A stretch of DNA of 64,000 nucleotides, taken from NCBI GenBank assembly GCA_037965595.1, contig CP150183.1, forward strand, positions 248,001 to 312,000. The letters are read 5' to 3'. Position 1 is the first letter of the stretch, and the number at the start of each line of letters is the position of its first letter. This stretch comes from Alkalihalobacillus sp. FSL W8-0930. Its GTDB lineage: Bacteria > Bacillota > Bacilli > Bacillales > Bacillaceae_D. Position numbers and translations under genes: made by a program. The notes below the pieces were generated by a model. The model did not search any database. It was not told the origin of the DNA and worked only from the letters and a program-made list of their open reading frames with translations. This document shows, piece after piece, positions 14,691 to 52,394 of this stretch.

Positions 14691-16517
14691 ATGAAACGTG
14701 AAAGTCTTCAAATGGGTGCAACGAAAGCAGATGCTGAGAAGTGGCTTCTTGAAATGGTTGATCCTGTGATGGCTGAGTTAAAAGAAGGTCATGCAGGAAT
14801 TCATTTAGGAGAGACAGGAGCATCATACGGCTCAAAAACAGCTCATATGGAAGCATTCTCTAGGCTATTCTGGGGAGTGGCTCCACTCGTAGCTGGTGGC
14901 AGTCATCCTCCCTATCTCGACCGACTCGTTGAAGGTGTTAGGAACGGAACGGACCCGAACCACTCTGAATATTGGGGAAAGCTGACTGATTATCATCAGA
15001 TGCTGGTAGAAATGTCCGTGTACGGCTATGCGCTTTGTTTAATGCCAGATCAGCTTTGGGGGAAGCTAACAAACAAGGAGCGAGATCATCTTGTTGCATG
15101 GCTGTCCCAAAGTAGTAAATACAAATGTCATGACTGCAACTGGCTGTTCTTCCCGGTTCTTGTTCAGTTGGGGTTAAAGCAAGTTGGCGCACCGTATTGC
15201 CAGCAAACGATTGATGATTCACTTGAACGGATGGAGGCTTTTTATCTGGGAAATGGCTGGTATGCTGACGGAGAAGATGCGCATCGTGACTATTACGTCC
15301 CATTTGCGATTCATTTTTATAGCCTTTTTTATGCAAAGGTAATGGAGGAGGATGATCCCGAACGAGCCAGTCTCTATAAAGAAAGGGCTAAACGTTTTGC
15401 CAAGGATTTTATCTACTGGTTTGCAGACGATGGACGTGCGATTCCGTATGGTCGCAGTATGACGTATCGTTTTGCCCAGGCTGCGTTCTGGAGTGCGATT
15501 GTTTATGCGGAGGTAGATGTTGCTCCTTATACACTTGGGGAGATAAAAGGTCTATTGTTTCGTCATCTTCGTGAGTGGATGGACCGACCGATTTTCGATG
15601 CAAGAGGTGTATTGACGATTGGGTACGAGTATCCGAATCTAGGGATGTCGGAAAACTATAATTCCCCGGGCTCACCGTACTGGGCACTCAAAACGTTCTT
15701 ATTTCTGGCGCTTTCAGATGATCATCCATTTTGGAAGACGGACGAACAGGAAATGCCAACGTTAACAGAAGTTCACGCACAAGCTGAAGCAAACAAAGTG
15801 CTGACTCGGCATAAGGGGCACGCAGCCATGTTTAATGCAGGTCACCTAAGGACAAATGACCATACTCATACCTCTGCCAAGTATGAGAAGTTTGTCTACT
15901 CGAGTCACTTTGGGTTTAGTGTTCCCCGGGCAGAATGGGGAATGGAGCAGGGTGCTTTTGATTCGATGCTTGCATTAAGCGAGCAGGACCAACTTTTTAG
16001 AGTGAAACGCTCGTCCACAACGATTCAACTCTCAAACTCATTAATCAAAATGGATTGGCAGCCATGGAAGGACGTCACAGTAGAAACATGGATTGTGCCT
16101 GGTCTTCCGTGTCATTTACGAGTTCACCGGATTCAAACAGCTAGGCCACTAACCGCTGCAGAAGGTGGATTTGCTGTTGGAGTTGATGAAGGGGAAAATG
16201 GATCATCCATCGTGGGAGAGGGCAAAGCGCTCTATTCGTATAGTGGTGGAACAAGTGGAATCAAGCGTCTGTATGGAACAGGAGAGGTGAAGCTGGTGTA
16301 TCCAAACATAAATACAAACATCATGAAGCCACGAACCAGTATTCCAACCGTTGTGAGTACATTAGAACCAGGAACACATATTCAAGCAGTTGCGGTGTAT
16401 GGAACGTCGGACGATTGCTACGATTCAGATTGGGACGCGTATTTTTCAGTTGAGGAAAAGGAAGGCACACTTACTTTTTACCAAAAAGGATTAGACGAAC
16501 CGATACTAACGATATAA
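14691..16517 (+). CDS. DUF2264 domain protein (predicted glycoside-active toroid)
   Basis: Protein of 608 residues whose N-terminal ~360 residues match DUF2264: FSRLFWGVAPLVAGG, CNWLFFPVLVQLGLK, WYADGEDAHRDYYVPFAIHF, and IPYGRSMTYRFAQAAFWSAI. The family is predicted to be an (alpha/alpha)6 toroid and recurs in pectin and rhamnogalacturonan utilisation loci. The C-terminal part is beta-rich. The ATG at 14691 has GGAAGG upstream. The divergent arrangement with the heparinase-like gene (93 bp apart) implies shared regulation, but no regulator gene is present in the cluster. Confidence 0.82.
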   Translation: MKRESLQMGATKADAEKWLLEMVDPVMAELKEGHAGIHLGETGASYGSKTAHMEAFSRLFWGVAPLVAGGSHPPYLDRLVEGVRNGTDPNHSEYWGKLTDYHQMLVEMSVYGYALCLMPDQLWGKLTNKERDHLVAWLSQSSKYKCHDCNWLFFPVLVQLGLKQVGAPYCQQTIDDSLERMEAFYLGNGWYADGEDAHRDYYVPFAIHFYSLFYAKVMEEDDPERASLYKERAKRFAKDFIYWFADDGRAIPYGRSMTYRFAQAAFWSAIVYAEVDVAPYTLGEIKGLLFRHLREWMDRPIFDARGVLTIGYEYPNLGMSENYNSPGSPYWALKTFLFLALSDDHPFWKTDEQEMPTLTEVHAQAEANKVLTRHKGHAAMFNAGHLRTNDHTHTSAKYEKFVYSSHFGFSVPRAEWGMEQGAFDSMLALSEQDQLFRVKRSSTTIQLSNSLIKMDWQPWKDVTVETWIVPGLPCHLRVHRIQTARPLTAAEGGFAVGVDEGENGSSIVGEGKALYSYSGGTSGIKRLYGTGEVKLVYPNINTNIMKPRTSIPTVVSTLEPGTHIQAVAVYGTSDDCYDSDWDAYFSVEEKEGTLTFYQKGLDEPILTI

Positions 16518-16521
16518 AGGA

Positions 16522-16559
16522 GAAACTCGACACCCAGAGAGGATGTCGAGTTTCTTTTT
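16522..16559. terminator. hairpin terminator
   Basis: Perfect 11-bp arms GAAACTCGACA and TGTCGAGTTTC followed by TTTTT, between the DUF2264 gene and the convergent amidase. Confidence 0.85.
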
Positions 16560-16564
16560 GTTAT

Positions 16565-17242
16565 TTAGTTAGGTTGGAACTGTACATATTGTGTATTGCC
16601 AGTGATAAAGAGACCACTGCGGAGCTCGTACATCTTTGAACCATTCACTACTAATTCGCGAACAAAGGTAAAGACCTCATCGCGGCTCACAGTCTGATAG
16701 CGGGCGTTCCAATCAGGTCGATTGTACACCCAAAGAGAGGACGCGAGCACCCGAACCGTTCCGATTGAGTCGTTACTACTGCCACCAACCTCTTGAATGA
16801 AGCTATTCCATACACTTAATAGATTAGCCGGGCAGTTCTTGCCTGTCCAATGCTGATGACTGACCACACGCGAAAGTGGGATGTTTAACTGATTCATCAT
16901 ACTTTGGATGAGTTCAATCGCTCTTTGGCGTGTTGCGGTAAAATCGCCATCTCTATTCACGCAAAGTTCAATTCCGATTGACTGGCTGTTCCCACTAGAA
17001 CCTGCGTGCCAGCCAACTTCATTTGTTGGCAGGTGCTGATAGATAACAGAGTCATCGACTGTATAGTGCCAAGAGACTTGGCGACTTTGGGCATCGGCCC
17101 CTTTTACATAGCGAGAATGCGTCTCTGCGTCTGCTCCCGGGCTGGTGTTGGCTGTTTCGTGCACGGTGATGTAGGTAGGGGTGAGGCTTGTCCCCGGTCG
17201 GTTTGAGTTACTCGTTGGAATAAAATCTTGGATGATGTTCAT
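16565..17242 (-). CDS. N-acetylmuramoyl-L-alanine amidase (Amidase_2) with SH3-like tail
   Basis: Protein of 225 residues. The N-terminal amidase-2 domain (residues ~8-145) has the first zinc ligand in YITVHETANTS, the substrate block GWHAGSSGNSQSIGIELCVN, and the second ligand set in SHQHWTGKNCPANLL. This is a phage- or plasmid-type peptidoglycan amidase resembling CwlA/XlyA. The C-terminal ~70 residues (VRVLASSLWVYNRPDWNARY onward) look like an SH3-type cell-wall-binding module. No signal peptide is seen. The start at 17242 follows the yvrJ-like stop by 1 nt and has GAGGAGG upstream. It is divergent from a split sigma factor. Confidence 0.88.
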   Translation of the reverse strand: MNIIQDFIPTSNSNRPGTSLTPTYITVHETANTSPGADAETHSRYVKGADAQSRQVSWHYTVDDSVIYQHLPTNEVGWHAGSSGNSQSIGIELCVNRDGDFTATRQRAIELIQSMMNQLNIPLSRVVSHQHWTGKNCPANLLSVWNSFIQEVGGSSNDSIGTVRVLASSLWVYNRPDWNARYQTVSRDEVFTFVRELVVNGSKMYELRSGLFITGNTQYVQFQPN

Positions 17243-17243
17243 G

Positions 17244-17408
17244 TTACTCGTCCTCCTCTTTTTTTGTTGCAAGCTTCCTAGTCAGGTCTTCAATGGCTAG
17301 CGTCTGTGCGGTGATTTGCTTTTCAAAACGAAACAATAGATACAAGGCAACAGCACTTGGAAATCCGACGTTCGCAAGCAGCATCGTCCATTCAGGCATA
17401 GTTCCCAT
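17244..17408 (-). CDS. yvrJ: YvrJ-like small membrane protein
   Basis: A 54-codon gene: MGTMPEWTMLLANVGFPSAV (membrane segment continuing ALYLLFRF) then a charged helix EKQITAQTLAIEDLTRKLAT. This fits the YvrJ family (NVGFP followed by a single membrane segment and a basic/acidic tail). AAAGGGGTG precedes the ATG. Its stop is 1 nt from the amidase start, so the two genes are translated together. In B. subtilis, yvrJ is located at the sigO-rsoA locus, which strengthens the reading of the divergent genes at 17601-18486. Confidence 0.72.
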   Translation of the reverse strand: MGTMPEWTMLLANVGFPSAVALYLLFRFEKQITAQTLAIEDLTRKLATKKEEDE

Positions 17409-17476
17409 CTTTTCACCCCTTTAAGAGAAGCTACTATATAAAGAGATCTCCACGAAAAAAAAATCAACTTATTTCC

Positions 17477-17535
17477 CAAATTGATAAGAACATATATTCG
17501 CTTTTTCTGTGTATAATGAGAACATAAGTTCTTAT
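17477..17535. promoter_or_regulatory. divergent promoter region of the SigO-like locus
   Basis: Between yvrJ and the sigma-like gene lies a TATAAT at 17512-17517 reading toward the sigma gene, and just after it a perfect small inverted repeat AGAACATAAGTTCT (17519-17532). A related AAGAACATA occurs about 30 bp upstream. These could be a promoter and an operator or a sigma-specific promoter; the assignment is tentative. Confidence 0.35.
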
Positions 17536-17600
17536 TTATTTTATAGAACATTGATTATTTATTGCTTGTCATCTCTTTAAAGAGAAAGGAGGTATGTTTA

Positions 17601-18221
17601 ATGGAGTTAGTAAACCAACGTGCCTATAAGGAATCAATTGAGGTCAGAGAGTTTGTCGCAACCTATGAAAAAGCATTGAACGCACCTGTTATACGTGCGT
17701 TTCTTGAAGAGGAACAACACATGAATCTGTTAATAGAGAGTATTGTAGAACCAACACCAAAAAATAGAGAGGCTGTGAATGAAAGCTTTCGAAGCTTTTA
17801 TATGGAGCTGCGATTAGTAAAATACCTATCTCAACTCATTCACTATTACTCCATTGATGTAAGCAAACGCTATAGGCGACACTTTGCAAGACATTCCTAT
17901 GTGATGGACCAACCGCTTTCAGATGATCACTCACTCTATCTTCACGATGTATTAGAATCGGAGGGTCCTAGTGTCGAGAGTCTTGTTACCGAGGGAGGGA
18001 GCGATTTGGAGCAAGTCATTGAGAACCCTTTACTATACAAGCATTTTCTCGCTCTCTCGGACAAGCAGAAGCAAGTACTCAACCTTTACTTTGTGGGTGG
18101 ACTCAGCCATAGAGTAATTGCTAAGAGGTTTGGAAGCACGCCGCAGAATATCTCTCAAATTGCGACAAGAGCTCTTGCAAAATTGAGATCAGCTATCAAT
18201 CAGGAGGACAAGCATGAGTAA
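17601..18221 (+). CDS. sigO: SigO-like sigma-factor subunit (region 4 component)
   Basis: Protein of 206 residues. The C-terminal part (about residues 145-200) is a sigma region 4-type helix-turn-helix: DKQKQVLNLYFVGGLSHRVI then AKRFGSTPQNISQIATRALA. The N-terminal part (MNLLIESIVEPTPKNREAVN, then a YMELRLVKYLSQLIHYYSID block) is not a canonical region 2 but matches what I recall of B. subtilis YvrI/SigO. SigO works only together with RsoA, which supplies region 2. The start ATG 17601 has AAAGGAGGT at a 7-nt spacing. It overlaps the downstream RsoA-like gene by 8 nt, showing translational coupling. Confidence 0.78.
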   Translation: MELVNQRAYKESIEVREFVATYEKALNAPVIRAFLEEEQHMNLLIESIVEPTPKNREAVNESFRSFYMELRLVKYLSQLIHYYSIDVSKRYRRHFARHSYVMDQPLSDDHSLYLHDVLESEGPSVESLVTEGGSDLEQVIENPLLYKHFLALSDKQKQVLNLYFVGGLSHRVIAKRFGSTPQNISQIATRALAKLRSAINQEDKHE

Positions 18222-18486
18222 CACAAAAAAAGATCTCATTCAAAAAATGGAACCAAAGATTAAGAAAAGCATTCGTCACATCCCTTGGCAGTACCGGGAA
18301 GACGTTGAACAAGAAATCAAGATGAAGGTGATGGAATCCATTGACAAAGTGAACACGTATGACGTCCCAAGTTTTTTTGAATACACAGCAAAAGAGAACA
18401 ACAAGAAAGCAGGAACAAGGAAAAAGAAAGCGAATAATAAGGGGAAAACGGAAGAGAGTAGGGTGACGGATGAATATGAATGCTAG
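18214..18486 (+). CDS. rsoA: RsoA-like sigma co-factor (region 2 component)
   Basis: Protein of 90 residues. MEPKIKKSIRHIPWQYREDVEQE resembles the core-binding/region 2 motif of sigma factors and the YvrHa/RsoA pattern of a YREDVEQEIKMKVME-type helix. The C-terminal third is a lysine-rich tail (KENNKKAGTRKKKANNKGK). The ATG lies inside the 3' end of the SigO-like gene. RsoA in B. subtilis binds SigO and together they form a functional sigma that activates oxdC and yvrJ. The family match is by pattern memory; the two-gene coupling and length strongly support it. Confidence 0.72.
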   Translation: MSNTKKDLIQKMEPKIKKSIRHIPWQYREDVEQEIKMKVMESIDKVNTYDVPSFFEYTAKENNKKAGTRKKKANNKGKTEESRVTDEYEC

Positions 18487-18895
18487 ACAAATCTTTGTGA
18501 ATCTCCCAGTCAAAGATCTTCAGAAATCAAAGGCCTTTTTTACAGAGGTAGGCTTTACATTTAATGAACAATTTGAAGATGAAAGCGCAACGTGTATGGT
18601 GGTTAACGAAACGATCTTTGTAATGCTCCTGGAAGAAGACCGCTACACATCGTTTACTAAAAAAGAAATCCCAAACACAAGCACCCACTCTGAAGCCATC
18701 GTCGCGCTCTCGCTGGATAGTCGCGAAGAAGTAGACGAAGTTGTGAACCGCGCATTCGCTGCAGGGGCGGGAACGTATAATGAACCACAGGATCACGGAT
18801 TCATGTATGGATGGAGCTTCGCAGACATCGACGGCCATCTGTGGGAGTTCTTTCATATGGACATGGCAGCAGCAGAAGCCGCAGCCAAGCAGTAA
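18470..18895 (+). CDS. VOC family protein (glyoxalase/dioxygenase fold)
   Basis: Protein of 141 residues resembling PhnB/lactoylglutathione-lyase-like VOC proteins: ARQIFVNLPVKDLQKSKAFF at the start, the metal-ligand-like block DHGFMYGWSFADIDGHLWEF near the end, with two beta-alpha-beta-beta-beta modules between. It overlaps the RsoA-like 3' end by 17 nt (start ATG 18470 or 18476), so it may be co-transcribed with the sigma pair. The substrate is unknown. T-rich sequence after the stop (18911-18926) could end transcription. Confidence 0.8.
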   Translation: MNMNARQIFVNLPVKDLQKSKAFFTEVGFTFNEQFEDESATCMVVNETIFVMLLEEDRYTSFTKKEIPNTSTHSEAIVALSLDSREEVDEVVNRAFAAGAGTYNEPQDHGFMYGWSFADIDGHLWEFFHMDMAAAEAAAKQ

Positions 18896-19081
18896 GTATC
18901 TTCGGATGCTTGCTGTTTTTTTTTTTGGGGTGAGGGGGAGAAGTGGAGCGTTAGCCAATTAAATTAGAGCGTTAACTAATCAAATCAATGCATTACGCAT
19001 CCTCATCCTTTTCAAACTCATTAATCCTTGATAAACTGAATATAATCTATTTTCTGAATTAATAAGAGGGGGTGCAACCCT

Positions 19082-19294
19082 GTGAGGCAGTTTATTCTAG
19101 GGTTATTGCTCTCATTTTTAGTGATAGGAATCTTAAGGTGGATCGGCGTTCCTTTCACCCCAGGTGATCTATTGCAGAACATGATCGGAGAACCAACTCC
19201 AATCAAATCAGTAGTGGTTATTCTTCTTGGGATAATCATCTTTTATCTAATCTTTCGTTCCATTCGTCATAAGACGCGAGAGAACGCATCTTAA
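19082..19294 (+). CDS. small two-span membrane protein
   Basis: A 70-codon ORF starting with GTG 19082, with AGGGGGT at an 8-nt spacing. The product has two hydrophobic segments (FILGLLLSFLVIGILRWIG and SVVVILLGIIIFYLIFRSI) separated by a short loop and a basic tail. No family is recognised. The gap between the VOC gene and this one carries a two-copy direct repeat GAGCGTTA(G/A)C(C/T)AAT at about 18945-18982. Confidence 0.5.
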   Translation: MRQFILGLLLSFLVIGILRWIGVPFTPGDLLQNMIGEPTPIKSVVVILLGIIIFYLIFRSIRHKTRENAS

Positions 19295-19350
19295 CTCTCA
19301 ATGTTTGAGAGTTTCTGAGTAATCTGATAAAATTAATATACATTCATATA

Positions 19351-19453
19351 TCTTATCAAGAGAGGCAGAGGGACTGGCCCTACGAAGCCCGGCAACCGAT
19401 TATTTATTCAGGTGCCAAATCCAGCAGAATGGAGATCATTCTGATAGATAAGG
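19351..19453 (+). promoter_or_regulatory. SAM-I (S-box) riboswitch aptamer
   Basis: The sequence contains the S-box landmarks in order: P1 5' strand CTTATC (19352-19357), AGAGAGGCAGAGGGACTGGC, GAAGCCCGGCAACC, GGTGCCAAATCCAGC and the P1 3' strand GATAAG (19447-19452). It is followed by a terminator hairpin at 19461-19490. S-box leaders shut transcription down when S-adenosylmethionine is plentiful, so the two downstream genes should be expressed under methionine or sulfur limitation. Confidence 0.95.
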
Positions 19454-19460
19454 AGTACGC

Positions 19461-19490
19461 ACACGTCTTCTTACAGAAGAGGTGTTTTTT
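19461..19490 (+). terminator. riboswitch-controlled terminator (SAM-I expression platform)
   Basis: ACACGTCTTCT and AGAAGAGGTGT (one mismatch) with a TAC loop and a run of T. It sits between the aptamer and the monooxygenase start codon. Confidence 0.85.
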
Positions 19491-19515
19491 ATTATAGAGA
19501 GTGGGGGCGTAATAG

Positions 19516-20571
19516 ATGAAGTATGGGTTTTGGCTACCTATTTTTGGAGGATGGTTACGCAATGTTCATGATGAGCAGATGCCGGCAACCTTTGAATATG
19601 CAAAGAAAGTCGTTCAAGCAGCGGAGGACTGGGGATATGATACCACTCTCCTTGCTGAGCTCTATTTAAACGATATAAAAGGTCCTGGTGAAGATGTACT
19701 GGAGGCATGGACCACGGCTGCGGCGCTTGCTGCGGTTACCTCTAAAATAGAACTTATGACAGCCATTCGTCCGGGTTTCCATAATCCGGCGACGACGGCA
19801 AAGATGGCGGCGAATATTGACCAGATTAGTAACGGCCGATTTACGTTAAATGTTGTGTCTGCTTGGTGGGCTGAGGAGGCGCGTCAATATGGCGGTGTAT
19901 TCACAGAGCATGATGAGCGCTATGCTCGAACCGAGGAGTTCATTGATGTATTAAAAGGGCTATGGACCGAGGAATCCTTCACGTACAATGGAACCTACTA
20001 TCAGCTAAAGGATACGAAGCTTTCACCAAAGCCTGTTCAGCGTCCGAACCCCATTCTTTATGCAGGTGGTGAGAGTGAGCAGGGCAAAACAACCATCGCT
20101 GAAAAATGTGACGCCTACGTCATGCATGGTGGTACGGTGGAAGAGATTCGCGCGAAGATTACTGATATGAAGGAACGCCGTAAGAAAACGGGGCACACGC
20201 CATTTTCACGTTTTGGGATGGCGGCTTACGTTATTTGCCGCGATACAGAAGAAGAGGCCCAGGCTGAGCTCGCTCGGATTACCGATGTGAAGGAATCGGA
20301 TGCCTATGCGGGGTACGATGATTTTACAAGCAAATCGCAGCTTGAACAGCAAATTAAGCTACAGGATTACTCGGTTTCCAACCGTGGTTTACGACCTGAA
20401 TTGATTGGGACACCAGAGATGATTGCCAAACGAATTCTTGAGTACGAAGAGGCAGGGCTTGATCTAGTACTCTTACAATGCTCGCCGCAATATGAGGAAA
20501 TGGAACGCTTCGCCCGCGACGTGATGCCAGTTGTTGAACAACTGAGAAAGCAAACAAAGGAGACAATCTAA
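19516..20571 (+). CDS. LLM class flavin-dependent monooxygenase, SfnG/SsuD-like
   Basis: Protein of 351 residues of the bacterial luciferase superfamily. It has the conserved TIM-barrel blocks MKYGFWLPIFGGWLRN, DQISNGRFTLNVVSAWW, FTEHDERYARTEEFIDVLKG and LSPKPVQRPNPILYAGG. The pattern is closest to SfnG (dimethylsulfone monooxygenase) and SsuD (alkanesulfonate monooxygenase), which use reduced FMN and O2 to release sulfite or sulfinate. The SAM-I riboswitch ahead of it independently indicates a sulfur-scavenging role. No flavin reductase gene is adjacent. It is coupled (1-nt gap) to an ATP-grasp gene. Confidence 0.88.
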   Translation: MKYGFWLPIFGGWLRNVHDEQMPATFEYAKKVVQAAEDWGYDTTLLAELYLNDIKGPGEDVLEAWTTAAALAAVTSKIELMTAIRPGFHNPATTAKMAANIDQISNGRFTLNVVSAWWAEEARQYGGVFTEHDERYARTEEFIDVLKGLWTEESFTYNGTYYQLKDTKLSPKPVQRPNPILYAGGESEQGKTTIAEKCDAYVMHGGTVEEIRAKITDMKERRKKTGHTPFSRFGMAAYVICRDTEEEAQAELARITDVKESDAYAGYDDFTSKSQLEQQIKLQDYSVSNRGLRPELIGTPEMIAKRILEYEEAGLDLVLLQCSPQYEEMERFARDVMPVVEQLRKQTKETI

Positions 20572-23382: not shown

Positions 23383-23409
23383 ACACTATAGCAGTAGTTG
23401 CATAGTGTC
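23383..23409 (+). repeat. hairpin upstream of the purine riboswitch
   Basis: ACACTAT and ATAGTGT pair around a 12-nt loop directly before the aptamer. It could be an upstream helix of the leader RNA or a separate operator. Confidence 0.4.
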
Positions 23410-23411
23410 GT

Positions 23412-23481
23412 TATCATCGTATAGCCCCAATAATATGGATTGGGGGTTTCTAGTAGGAGCCATAAACTTCCTAGCTACGAG
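23412..23481 (+). promoter_or_regulatory. purine riboswitch aptamer, guanine type (C74)
   Basis: The aptamer has P2 CCCCAA...TTGGGG with loop TAATATGGA, the conserved J2/3 GTTTCTA (23446-23452), and P3 with loop GCCATAAA, all in register with the xpt aptamer. Joining J3/1 reads G-C-T-A, placing C at the specificity position (C74, base 23475), so guanine or hypoxanthine rather than adenine is the expected ligand. The base before it is G where xpt has A, a possible variation. P1 is short (TCGT with ACGA), plus weaker outer pairs. Confidence 0.9.
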
Positions 23482-23515
23482 AATAGGTTTGCCCTATTTT
23501 TGTAGCTATTTTTTG
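23472..23515 (+). terminator. riboswitch terminator overlapping aptamer P1 (ON-type platform)
   Basis: A 16-bp stem joins bases 23472-23487 to 23493-23508 (outer arms TAGCTAC/GTAGCTA, inner ATAGG/CCTAT with two G-U pairs), followed by six T. The 5' arm includes the aptamer J3/1 and the whole P1 3' strand, so ligand-bound aptamer and terminator cannot coexist. That predicts activation by ligand, as in the adenine pbuE switch. Confidence 0.8.
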
Positions 23516-35904: not shown

Positions 35905-35949
35905 TATTTTGGATTAAATGAGAGGAGGATTGTGTAGAGTTAGTAAGCA

Positions 35950-36125
35950 ACATAAAGCGCCTGAACTGCCCCGCGTACGGATTTTGGGACAGTTGACGAG
36001 GAGAGGGTTTATCGATTTTTTCGGCGGATGCCCTCCGGTTGATGCATGACAACCGTCAAGCTTCTGGAAAAAGCATCAGGGTGACCTGGTGGACAAAGCT
36101 AGAAGTACCATGCCCATAAAAACTA
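35950..36125 (+). ncRNA. glmS ribozyme (GlcN6P-responsive, self-cleaving)
   Basis: The leader contains the glmS ribozyme core: the cleavage site before GCGCC (35956/35957), AGTTGACGAGGA, GGGTTTATCGA, TTCGGCGGATGCCCTCCGG and CATGACA. It is activated by glucosamine-6-phosphate, and cleavage leads to degradation of glmS mRNA. A GC-rich hairpin (GGGGGCAAG/CTTGCCCCC, about 36138-36173) lies between it and the glmS ribosome binding site. Confidence 0.96.
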
Positions 36126-52175: not shown

Positions 52176-52255
52176 ATTAAATCTTTACGCACTAATTAAT
52201 CTAAGGTATAGTAAAGCCAATGTGAAAGCGTTACCCAATAATTGAATAGTCAAGA

Positions 52256-52340
52256 AGCACTAGGGGTGTTTTTAACTGAGATGAGTGTATACTCGAACCC
52301 TTTGAACCTGAACTAGGTAAGACTAGCGGAGGAAAGTGCC
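52256..52340 (+). promoter_or_regulatory. TPP riboswitch (THI element)
   Basis: The stretch contains the THI landmarks: GCACTAGGGGTG, CTGAGATGA, ACCCTTTGAACCTGAACTAG and AGCGGAGGAAAGTGC, with P1 formed by GCAC/GTGC. It is followed by a terminator at 52395-52428. TPP binding is expected to end transcription early, so the operon below should be on when thiamine is scarce. Confidence 0.95.
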
Positions 52341-52394
52341 AAGCTTCAATACATAGTTACCGTGTATTTGTGTTTCATTGGTATGTATTAGTTT

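Follow-up and report, generated by a model that had tools for sequence, protein, structure and literature searches.

A split-sigma-factor locus in Alkalihalobacillus sp. FSL W8-0930 as a candidate SOS-controlled switch for holin-like and endolysin-like genes

In Bacillus subtilis, the two-subunit sigma factor SigO–RsoA (YvrI–YvrHa) transcribes oxdC-yvrL, yvrJ and its own operon (PMC8103513), and OxdC, which the cells express in acid, gets as far as the wall (PMC8254039). In clostridia, the UviA/UviB/Bcn5 and large clostridial toxin loci bring together a sigma factor, a small holin, an endolysin and signal-less cargo, and have been discussed as systems for holin-dependent release of signal-less proteins (PMC9527704); a word-start search of that text returned no occurrence of "yvr" or "oxalate". 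Here we describe a sigO-rsoA-like locus in a 64,000-nucleotide stretch of Alkalihalobacillus sp. FSL W8-0930 (contig CP150183.1, positions 248001–312000 of a 3.885-Mb single-contig genome; hereafter the window). On balance we lean towards reading this locus as a predicted wall-lysis or release cassette in which an SOS-controlled split sigma factor amplifies its own expression and switches on an endolysin-like amidase together with a holin-like protein.

The locus consists of five genes in two divergent groups, all of them open, and an open reading frame (ORF) map confirmed the ORFs, overlaps and gene order given in a preliminary description of this DNA.

17601–18221, plus strand: sigO-like gene, sigma region 4 subunit, 206 amino acids (aa) from ATG
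18214–18486, plus strand: rsoA-like gene, sigma region 2-like subunit, 90 aa
18470–18895, plus strand: VOC/glyoxalase-like gene, read after rsoA; Pfam Glyoxalase/VOC E 2.8e-12
17244–17408, minus strand: yvrJ gene, holin-like, 54 aa; PF12841 E 3.6e-12
16565–17242, minus strand: N-acetylmuramoyl-L-alanine amidase gene, endolysin-like, 225 aa; Amidase_2 E 5.7e-27

The sigO-like and rsoA-like ORFs overlap by 8 bp and the rsoA and VOC ORFs by 17 bp, while yvrJ and the amidase gene, separated by 1 bp, form a pair divergent from sigO-rsoA-voc. An alternative TTG start for the sigO-like gene is possible at 17562. The split SigO/RsoA design proposed in the preliminary description was borne out by the adjacent region 4 and region 2-like genes and by their family profile matches. 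The SigO-like protein matched Pfam Sigma70_r4 (E 2.4e-10) and TIGR02937 (E 2.1e-14), and the hidden Markov model check proposed for the 90-residue protein returned matches to the RsoA families NCBIfam RsoA NF041489 (E 6.5e-12, 45.3 bits) and PRK14082 (E 1.2e-14, 53.9 bits), each under the family cut-off. Since the RsoA match is strong by E-value but below the equivalog score, we regard the pair as a SigO–RsoA homologue outside the B. subtilis equivalog. The AlphaFold model of the RsoA-like protein contains three helices (mean predicted local distance difference test score (pLDDT) 82.6), and five of its six Foldseek matches were extracytoplasmic function (ECF) sigma region 2 or sigmaE (E at least 2.3); the SigO-like model (mean pLDDT 76.8) retrieved sigma factors and isolated region 4 domains, with a best E of 9.8e-3. 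By homology, the window pair is a SigO–RsoA-type two-subunit sigma factor whose subunits would be expected to form a complex.

A shared bipartite element lies before each of the two gene groups.

17551–17579, plus strand: candidate SigO-type promoter element of sigO-rsoA-voc, TTGATT-N14-ATCTCTTTA
17439–17467, minus strand: candidate SigO-type promoter element of yvrJ-amidase, TTGATT-N14-ATCTCTTTA

The 192-bp intergenic region can be aligned across five congeneric genomes (the window and loci L022–L025), in which TTGNTT-N14-ATCTCTTTA stands on opposite strands, 21–22 nucleotides (nt) before sigO and 30–33 nt before yvrJ. Counted on the sigO and yvrJ sides, the window, L022 and L023 have 0/0 mismatches to this pattern, L024 has 1/1 through the identical base change in both elements, and L025 has 0/2. 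The best 36-mer common to both sides of the window had 26 of 36 matches versus a shuffle mean of 20.6, a score reached by 1 of 200 shuffles (0 of 200 in a 32-mer version of the test), and an unprompted 36-mer search recovered the same element in L022, L023 and L024 (0 of 100 shuffles each) and failed to recover it in L025. The exact pattern occurs at two places in the genome, both at this locus, and its eight one-mismatch sites all lie inside mechanically called ORFs of at least 100 aa; as the pattern was derived from the two locus sites themselves, only the absence of other exact sites is informative. By eye, GTTGAC-N15-ATCACTTA of the Bacillus-type oxdC is close to GTTGAT-N15-ATCTCTTTA here. 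This element, identically spaced on both sides, supports the predicted regulatory link by which the sigma factor would act both on its own gene and on yvrJ-amidase.

A genome-wide regulon search with up to two mismatches gave 162 sites (81+81) versus 103 for the control and was set aside as uninformative. Twin promoters at other divergent loci were likewise rejected: scores mostly did not exceed those of shuffles, and several best matches were palindromes matching themselves. Because the shuffle test was mostly null there, we restrict the twin-promoter claim to this genus.

Between the two elements lie further sites that bear on how the circuit might be switched on.

17519–17532, strand-neutral: SOS (LexA)-type box AGAACATAAGTTCT, a perfect GAACN4GTTC, upstream of sigO and between both promoter elements
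17487–17500, strand-neutral: second SOS-like box AGAACATATATTCG, one half-site mismatch
17512–17517, plus strand: TATAAT, possible SigA -10 between the two boxes, invariant in five genomes

The Bacillus LexA box consensus is CGAACRNRYGTTYC, and the site at 17519–17532 has that form. It is the only perfect GAACN4GTTC in the 64-kb window, and GAACATAAGTTCT is identical across the five congeneric genomes. The second box keeps its position in the five genomes and not its full sequence; alone it carries little weight, as the 64 kb contain 22 sites that match with one mismatch or none. Upstream of the genome's own lexA, three one-mismatch boxes were seen by eye. Across the related loci, a perfect box was present near the sigO start (from -350 to +60) at 82 of 125 SigO–RsoA loci versus 5 of 1333 control ORFs from the same stretches, the controls being mechanical ORFs of at least 100 aa, excluding starts within 800 nt of the sigO start. 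Positions were counted from the longest ORF start; their median is -73, and they extend up to +46 because the true start codon is uncertain. The boxed loci fall into 41 genus-level groups (a viral contig being one) out of no more than 66, a total that may count twice a genus shared by a named locus and a genome of our numbered set (G). The box core fits RNRY on either strand in 62 of the 82. Six plasmid loci were examined later: in five a perfect box stands just upstream of sigO, ~130 nt or less from its annotated start, and in the sixth the perfect box lies beyond an insertion sequence element inserted before sigO. Given an SOS-type box both here and at 82 of 125 loci, the sigO-rsoA circuit probably has a DNA-damage input, presumably through LexA binding, and the "self-contained" circuit of the preliminary description is not supported. 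Elsewhere in the genome, another strict SOS-type box (L231, G000:C1:240436) stands directly before a small uncharacterised gene.

The products of the divergent pair resemble lysis proteins. The window YvrJ matched PF12841 at 46.1 bits (cut-off 29.5) and has, by eye, a single short hydrophobic segment; 24 of 26 aligned YvrJ proteins match phrog_4898, a "holin" (best E 2.2e-9). The amidase is nearest to PHROG lysis amidases and endolysins (E 6.8e-48) and shows no hydrophobic N-terminus, with a hydropathy maximum of 0.08 over its first 60 residues; signal absence was judged by hydropathy, not by a trained predictor. By its Amidase_2 domain and the lack of an N-terminal export signal on this measure, it is endolysin-like. 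The binding tail earlier assigned to it (residues 162–220) was not upheld, its sole match being DUF5776 at E 0.011, under the cut-off of that family. A second YvrJ in the same genome (L108 7986–8585, G000:C1:1490839-1491438) lies beside DUF2922 and DUF1659 genes, and that 16-kb stretch contained no sigO or rsoA match.

RsoA was found in 17 of 41 family genomes, including all five that were searched from the genus, and in 51 of 398 class genomes; a search at order level (169 of 397 genomes) was not used as a frequency, since many of its matches, near E 1e-5, may be other sigma factors. Among named organisms, Alkalicoccobacillus gibsonii, A. murimartini and A. porphyridii are the nearest relatives found by rsoA. 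For comparison of neighbourhoods we used a chosen subset of loci (39 class-search and 60 order-search stretches, from the better-scoring listed places and spread over genera), dropping 12 as duplicates (L041-L045, L048, L050-L055) and L100 and L108 for having no RsoA hit. Among the 127 RsoA hits, examined in stretches of at most 20 kb, a SigO-like gene stands directly beside 125; L134 and L152, which have no such neighbour within the limits we set, were dropped, leaving 125 pairs, and YvrJ occurs within 2.5 kb of 91 of these. Over all 127 hits, the arrangements were SigO-YvrJ-RsoA (50), YvrJ on the opposite strand (27), SigO-RsoA-YvrJ (9) and YvrJ-SigO-RsoA (5), the remaining 36 comprising 35 without YvrJ and one unclassified. 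The five congeneric loci all have the divergent yvrJ-amidase pair and a VOC gene after rsoA, with the amidase and VOC readings of L024 each split over two frames; this recurrence argues against a chance arrangement. At the four Bacillus-type loci, whose RsoA is over the cut-off, the divergent yvrJ precedes oxdC (oxalate decarboxylase family, E 1.4e-179 or better in the three scanned; the fourth, L092, is split over two ORFs), so that the window amidase takes the oxdC position.

Several loci depart from these arrangements. A Shouchella-group genome carries two back-to-back SigO–RsoA pairs with no YvrJ within 2.5 kb (L035 6417–8516), and eleven further Shouchella-group loci without YvrJ within that distance (L026, L028-L030, L032, L033, L036-L040) adjoin what by eye is a glycosidase-like gene and, in most cases, genes for sugar transport as well; ten of the eleven retain a perfect SOS-type box. 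Two tandem pairs, each near a glutaredoxin-like gene, occur at L119 (6446–11741), which also holds proteins of the cluster containing phospholipase A2 (PLA2)-like ones.

Wall hydrolases recur beside the sigma pair. Amidase_2 is found near SigO–RsoA at ten loci (by Pfam in the window, L057, L121, L154, L160 and L183; by profile at the four congeneric loci), Amidase_3 by Pfam at L096, L115, L139, L166, L181, L182 and L184, an M15 peptidase with peptidoglycan (PG) binding at L139, and Rv2525c-like hydrolases at L136 and L140. L154 repeats the divergent yvrJ/Amidase_2 design of the window, L139 has the order sigO-rsoA-M15 peptidase-Amidase_3-yvrJ, and the Priestia megaterium plasmid pN447-3.3 has Amidase_3-yvrJ-sigO-rsoA-PG-binding protein. 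A background of 46 Amidase_2 in 30 genomes (~120 Mb) leads to an expectation of ~0.4 among the 125 loci, versus nine non-viral loci in four genera observed. At 17 loci an S8 protease is no more than 4 kb away, versus ~2 expected (212 in the same 30 genomes, which we chose and which include linked cases); seven of the 17 were confirmed by Pfam and the others come from listed S8 places. The S8 cluster itself covers 20 loci, of which L105, L136 and L186, with only short proteins, were excluded to give 17, and L152 falls outside the 125 pairs. PLA2-like neighbours, with weak PF00068 matches below the cut-off, occur at L027 (9617–10336), L034 (8283–9002) and L238 (2389–3114), and on plasmids the module is accompanied by S8 protease or PLA2-like genes.

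Most of the neighbouring wall hydrolases and S8 proteases have no obvious signal sequence; a hydrophobic N-terminus is present in the Amidase_3-cluster proteins of L124 and L172 and on the longest ORF of L128 and of the second L096 copy. Several of the S8 proteases resemble intracellular subtilisins by eye, so that the absence of a signal in them may be explained otherwise. The idea that the sigma factor reads a wall hydrolase instead of oxalate decarboxylase held in part: an amidase does occupy the oxdC position, but this is not peculiar to the locus, as signal-less wall hydrolases, in many cases together with YvrJ, recur beside SigO–RsoA in other genera and on the Priestia plasmid. Small glutaredoxin genes were also seen near SigO-YvrJ-RsoA with S8 protease or PLA2-like genes (L102, L103, L236, L237, L238).

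Compared with B. subtilis SigO–RsoA, the window locus shares the tandem split region 4/region 2 genes, a divergent yvrJ that precedes the gene of an enzyme lacking a hydrophobic N-terminus and, by eye, similar promoter elements. It differs in having an amidase for OxdC, an added VOC gene and no YvrL-like gene that we could see, and in its SOS-type box. The UviA-UviB-Bcn5 and TcdR/TcdE-type loci (PMC9527704) likewise combine a dedicated sigma factor, a small holin-like protein and an endolysin, whereas here the sigma factor is split in two, no bacteriocin gene was recognised in the locus and homology of YvrJ to BhlA is not supported. Phage holin–endolysin cassettes offer a third comparison, given the PHROG lysis amidases nearest to the amidase and the phrog_4898 matches of the YvrJ family; unlike them, the window locus has its own sigma factor, and none of the other proteins in the set of eight scanned at 14691–20571 is phage-like. 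Megacin A-216 of Bacillus megaterium, a PLA2 bacteriocin, is induced by damage, set free by lysis and accompanied by two small regulatory ORFs. PLA2-like genes near SigO–RsoA (L027, L238) recall it, although the window locus has no PLA2 gene.

In the working model suggested by these features, LexA bound to the boxes beside TATAAT (17487–17532) would keep sigO-rsoA low in the undamaged cell, and DNA damage would allow the two genes to be read. SigO (region 4, -35 element) and RsoA (region 2, -10 element) would then act as one sigma factor, the holoenzyme amplifying its own operon from the element at 17551–17579 and turning on yvrJ-amidase from that at 17439–17467. YvrJ, as a small holin-like membrane protein, may give the amidase, in which no export signal is evident, access to the wall, upon which the cell would lyse or leak its contents.

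Several observations weigh against this reading. The RsoA-like protein misses the NF041489 equivalog cut-off (100 bits) and the PRK14082 cut-off (86 bits), and the Foldseek matches of both models are not significant by E-value (for SigO, none at E 0.001 or below). The promoter scanner found no acceptable sigma-70 -35 for TATAAT. A perfect box is absent at 43 of 125 loci, including all four Bacillus-type loci with oxdC, and a genome-wide count of the strict pattern MGAACNTNNGTTCK shows no enrichment, with four forward-strand sites, one of them inside an ORF, versus six for the reversed-pattern control. In the shared-32-mer shuffle test most other divergent loci, Bacillus-type included, gave no twin promoters; within the genus, the L023 score was reached by 5–6 of 200 shuffles, and the L024 test chose a palindrome in place of the element. 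The window YvrJ itself matches phrog_4898 weakly (E 0.0019), and its homology to BhlA/UviB (PF10960) was rejected, as hhalign of 26 YvrJ with 8 BhlA gave no significant alignment, leaving an analogy only. At 50 of 127 RsoA hits YvrJ is placed inside the pair, between the two sigma genes; it also exists away from them (136 of 398 class genomes carry YvrJ), and at most of the 125 loci no wall hydrolase was identified nearby. Of two B. subtilis studies, one classes yvrI among the factors for cell-envelope stress (PMC4670728) and the other lists it under YvrH rather than LexA (PMC3600796).

The placement of YvrJ between the sigma genes, or at sites lacking them, could mean a regulatory or other role. 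We regard it as somewhat unlikely, while the strongest of the alternatives, that YvrJ is no holin and serves as a small membrane regulator of the split sigma factor (tether, anti-factor or co-factor), with the amidase leaving the cell otherwise or acting after lysis. Its position inside the sigma pair at those 50 hits and the missing profile match to BhlA would fit such a role, against which stand the holin PHROG matches of 24 of 26 YvrJ, the YvrJ genes away from any sigO-rsoA, and yvrJ directly preceding the amidase gene here and in L154.

An origin as a relic of a prophage or plasmid bacteriocin module, with lysis genes kept, cargo lost and function perhaps gone, appears unlikely. One viral contig does hold sigO-rsoA ~1.5 kb from an endolysin-like amidase; plasmids carrying the module with S8 protease or PLA2-like genes, the PHROG matches of the locus proteins and the broken amidase and VOC readings of L024 point the same way. 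However, the five window genes are open, the promoter elements are kept in five genomes, and a Pfam scan of the eight proteins at 14691–20571 found only yvrJ and the amidase phage-like. Phage carriage of close relatives was rejected on searches of phage records (RsoA without a match, SigO with one partial match) and of IMG/VR (no locus with SigO, one with an RsoA alignment).

Least probable, and in our judgement improbable, is a self-contained SigO/RsoA circuit that senses acid or envelope stress as in B. subtilis and remodels the wall through the amidase, with neither SOS control nor lysis: homology to SigO/RsoA, yvrJ-oxdC in the same place at Bacillus-type loci, the acid-expressed, wall-reaching OxdC (PMC8254039) and the classing of YvrI with envelope-stress factors (PMC4670728) speak for it, but a perfect SOS-type box conserved in five genomes and found at 82 of 125 loci, and an endolysin-like amidase without a hydrophobic N-terminus, speak against it.

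Other features of the locus and its surroundings complete the map.

16521–16555, minus strand: terminator-like hairpin 3' of the amidase gene, from a terminator scan
18887–18918, plus strand: terminator-like hairpin 3' of the VOC gene, from a terminator scan

The hairpins are weak evidence alone because the scan found four such sites and shuffles gave 2.6 +/- 1.9. None of the five locus proteins matched PADLOC defence systems at E 0.01. The window also contains an S-adenosylmethionine (SAM; S-box) riboswitch (19350–19454) upstream of a luciferase-like monooxygenase gene at 19516, a purine riboswitch (23397–23497), a glmS ribozyme (35945–36116) and a thiamine pyrophosphate (TPP) riboswitch (52252–52351).

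A literature search that lay outside the key B. subtilis papers found no paper linking SigO/YvrI to LexA or SOS, and no description of a damage-triggered lysis or release switch of this kind; those papers that name both SigO/YvrI and LexA/SOS keep the two terms apart in their available text (PMC4670728, PMC3600796). Work on this two-subunit sigma factor has treated it as an unusual regulator of acid stress in B. subtilis. Most of the family members examined here stand under an SOS-type box and beside YvrJ, often near hydrolases, of the wall or of other kinds, without obvious export signals. We propose tentatively, as a wider reading that may well prove wrong, that in most Bacilli carrying it SigO–RsoA is a LexA-controlled switch for YvrJ-holin release of signal-less enzymes, a counterpart of the clostridial systems, and that the acid-stress OxdC system descends from it through loss of SOS control; none of the four Bacillus-type loci has a perfect box, and their oxdC wiring may be such a derived case. 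The enzymes released would, just as tentatively, include amidases, other wall hydrolases, S8 proteases, PLA2-like proteins and, in B. subtilis, OxdC. If true, this would give a reason for the existence of the sigma factor and a testable role for the uncharacterised YvrJ family, it would suggest a possible route to the wall for OxdC, itself without a hydrophobic N-terminus, and it would place in many Bacilli a switch for lysis or release that DNA damage sets off.

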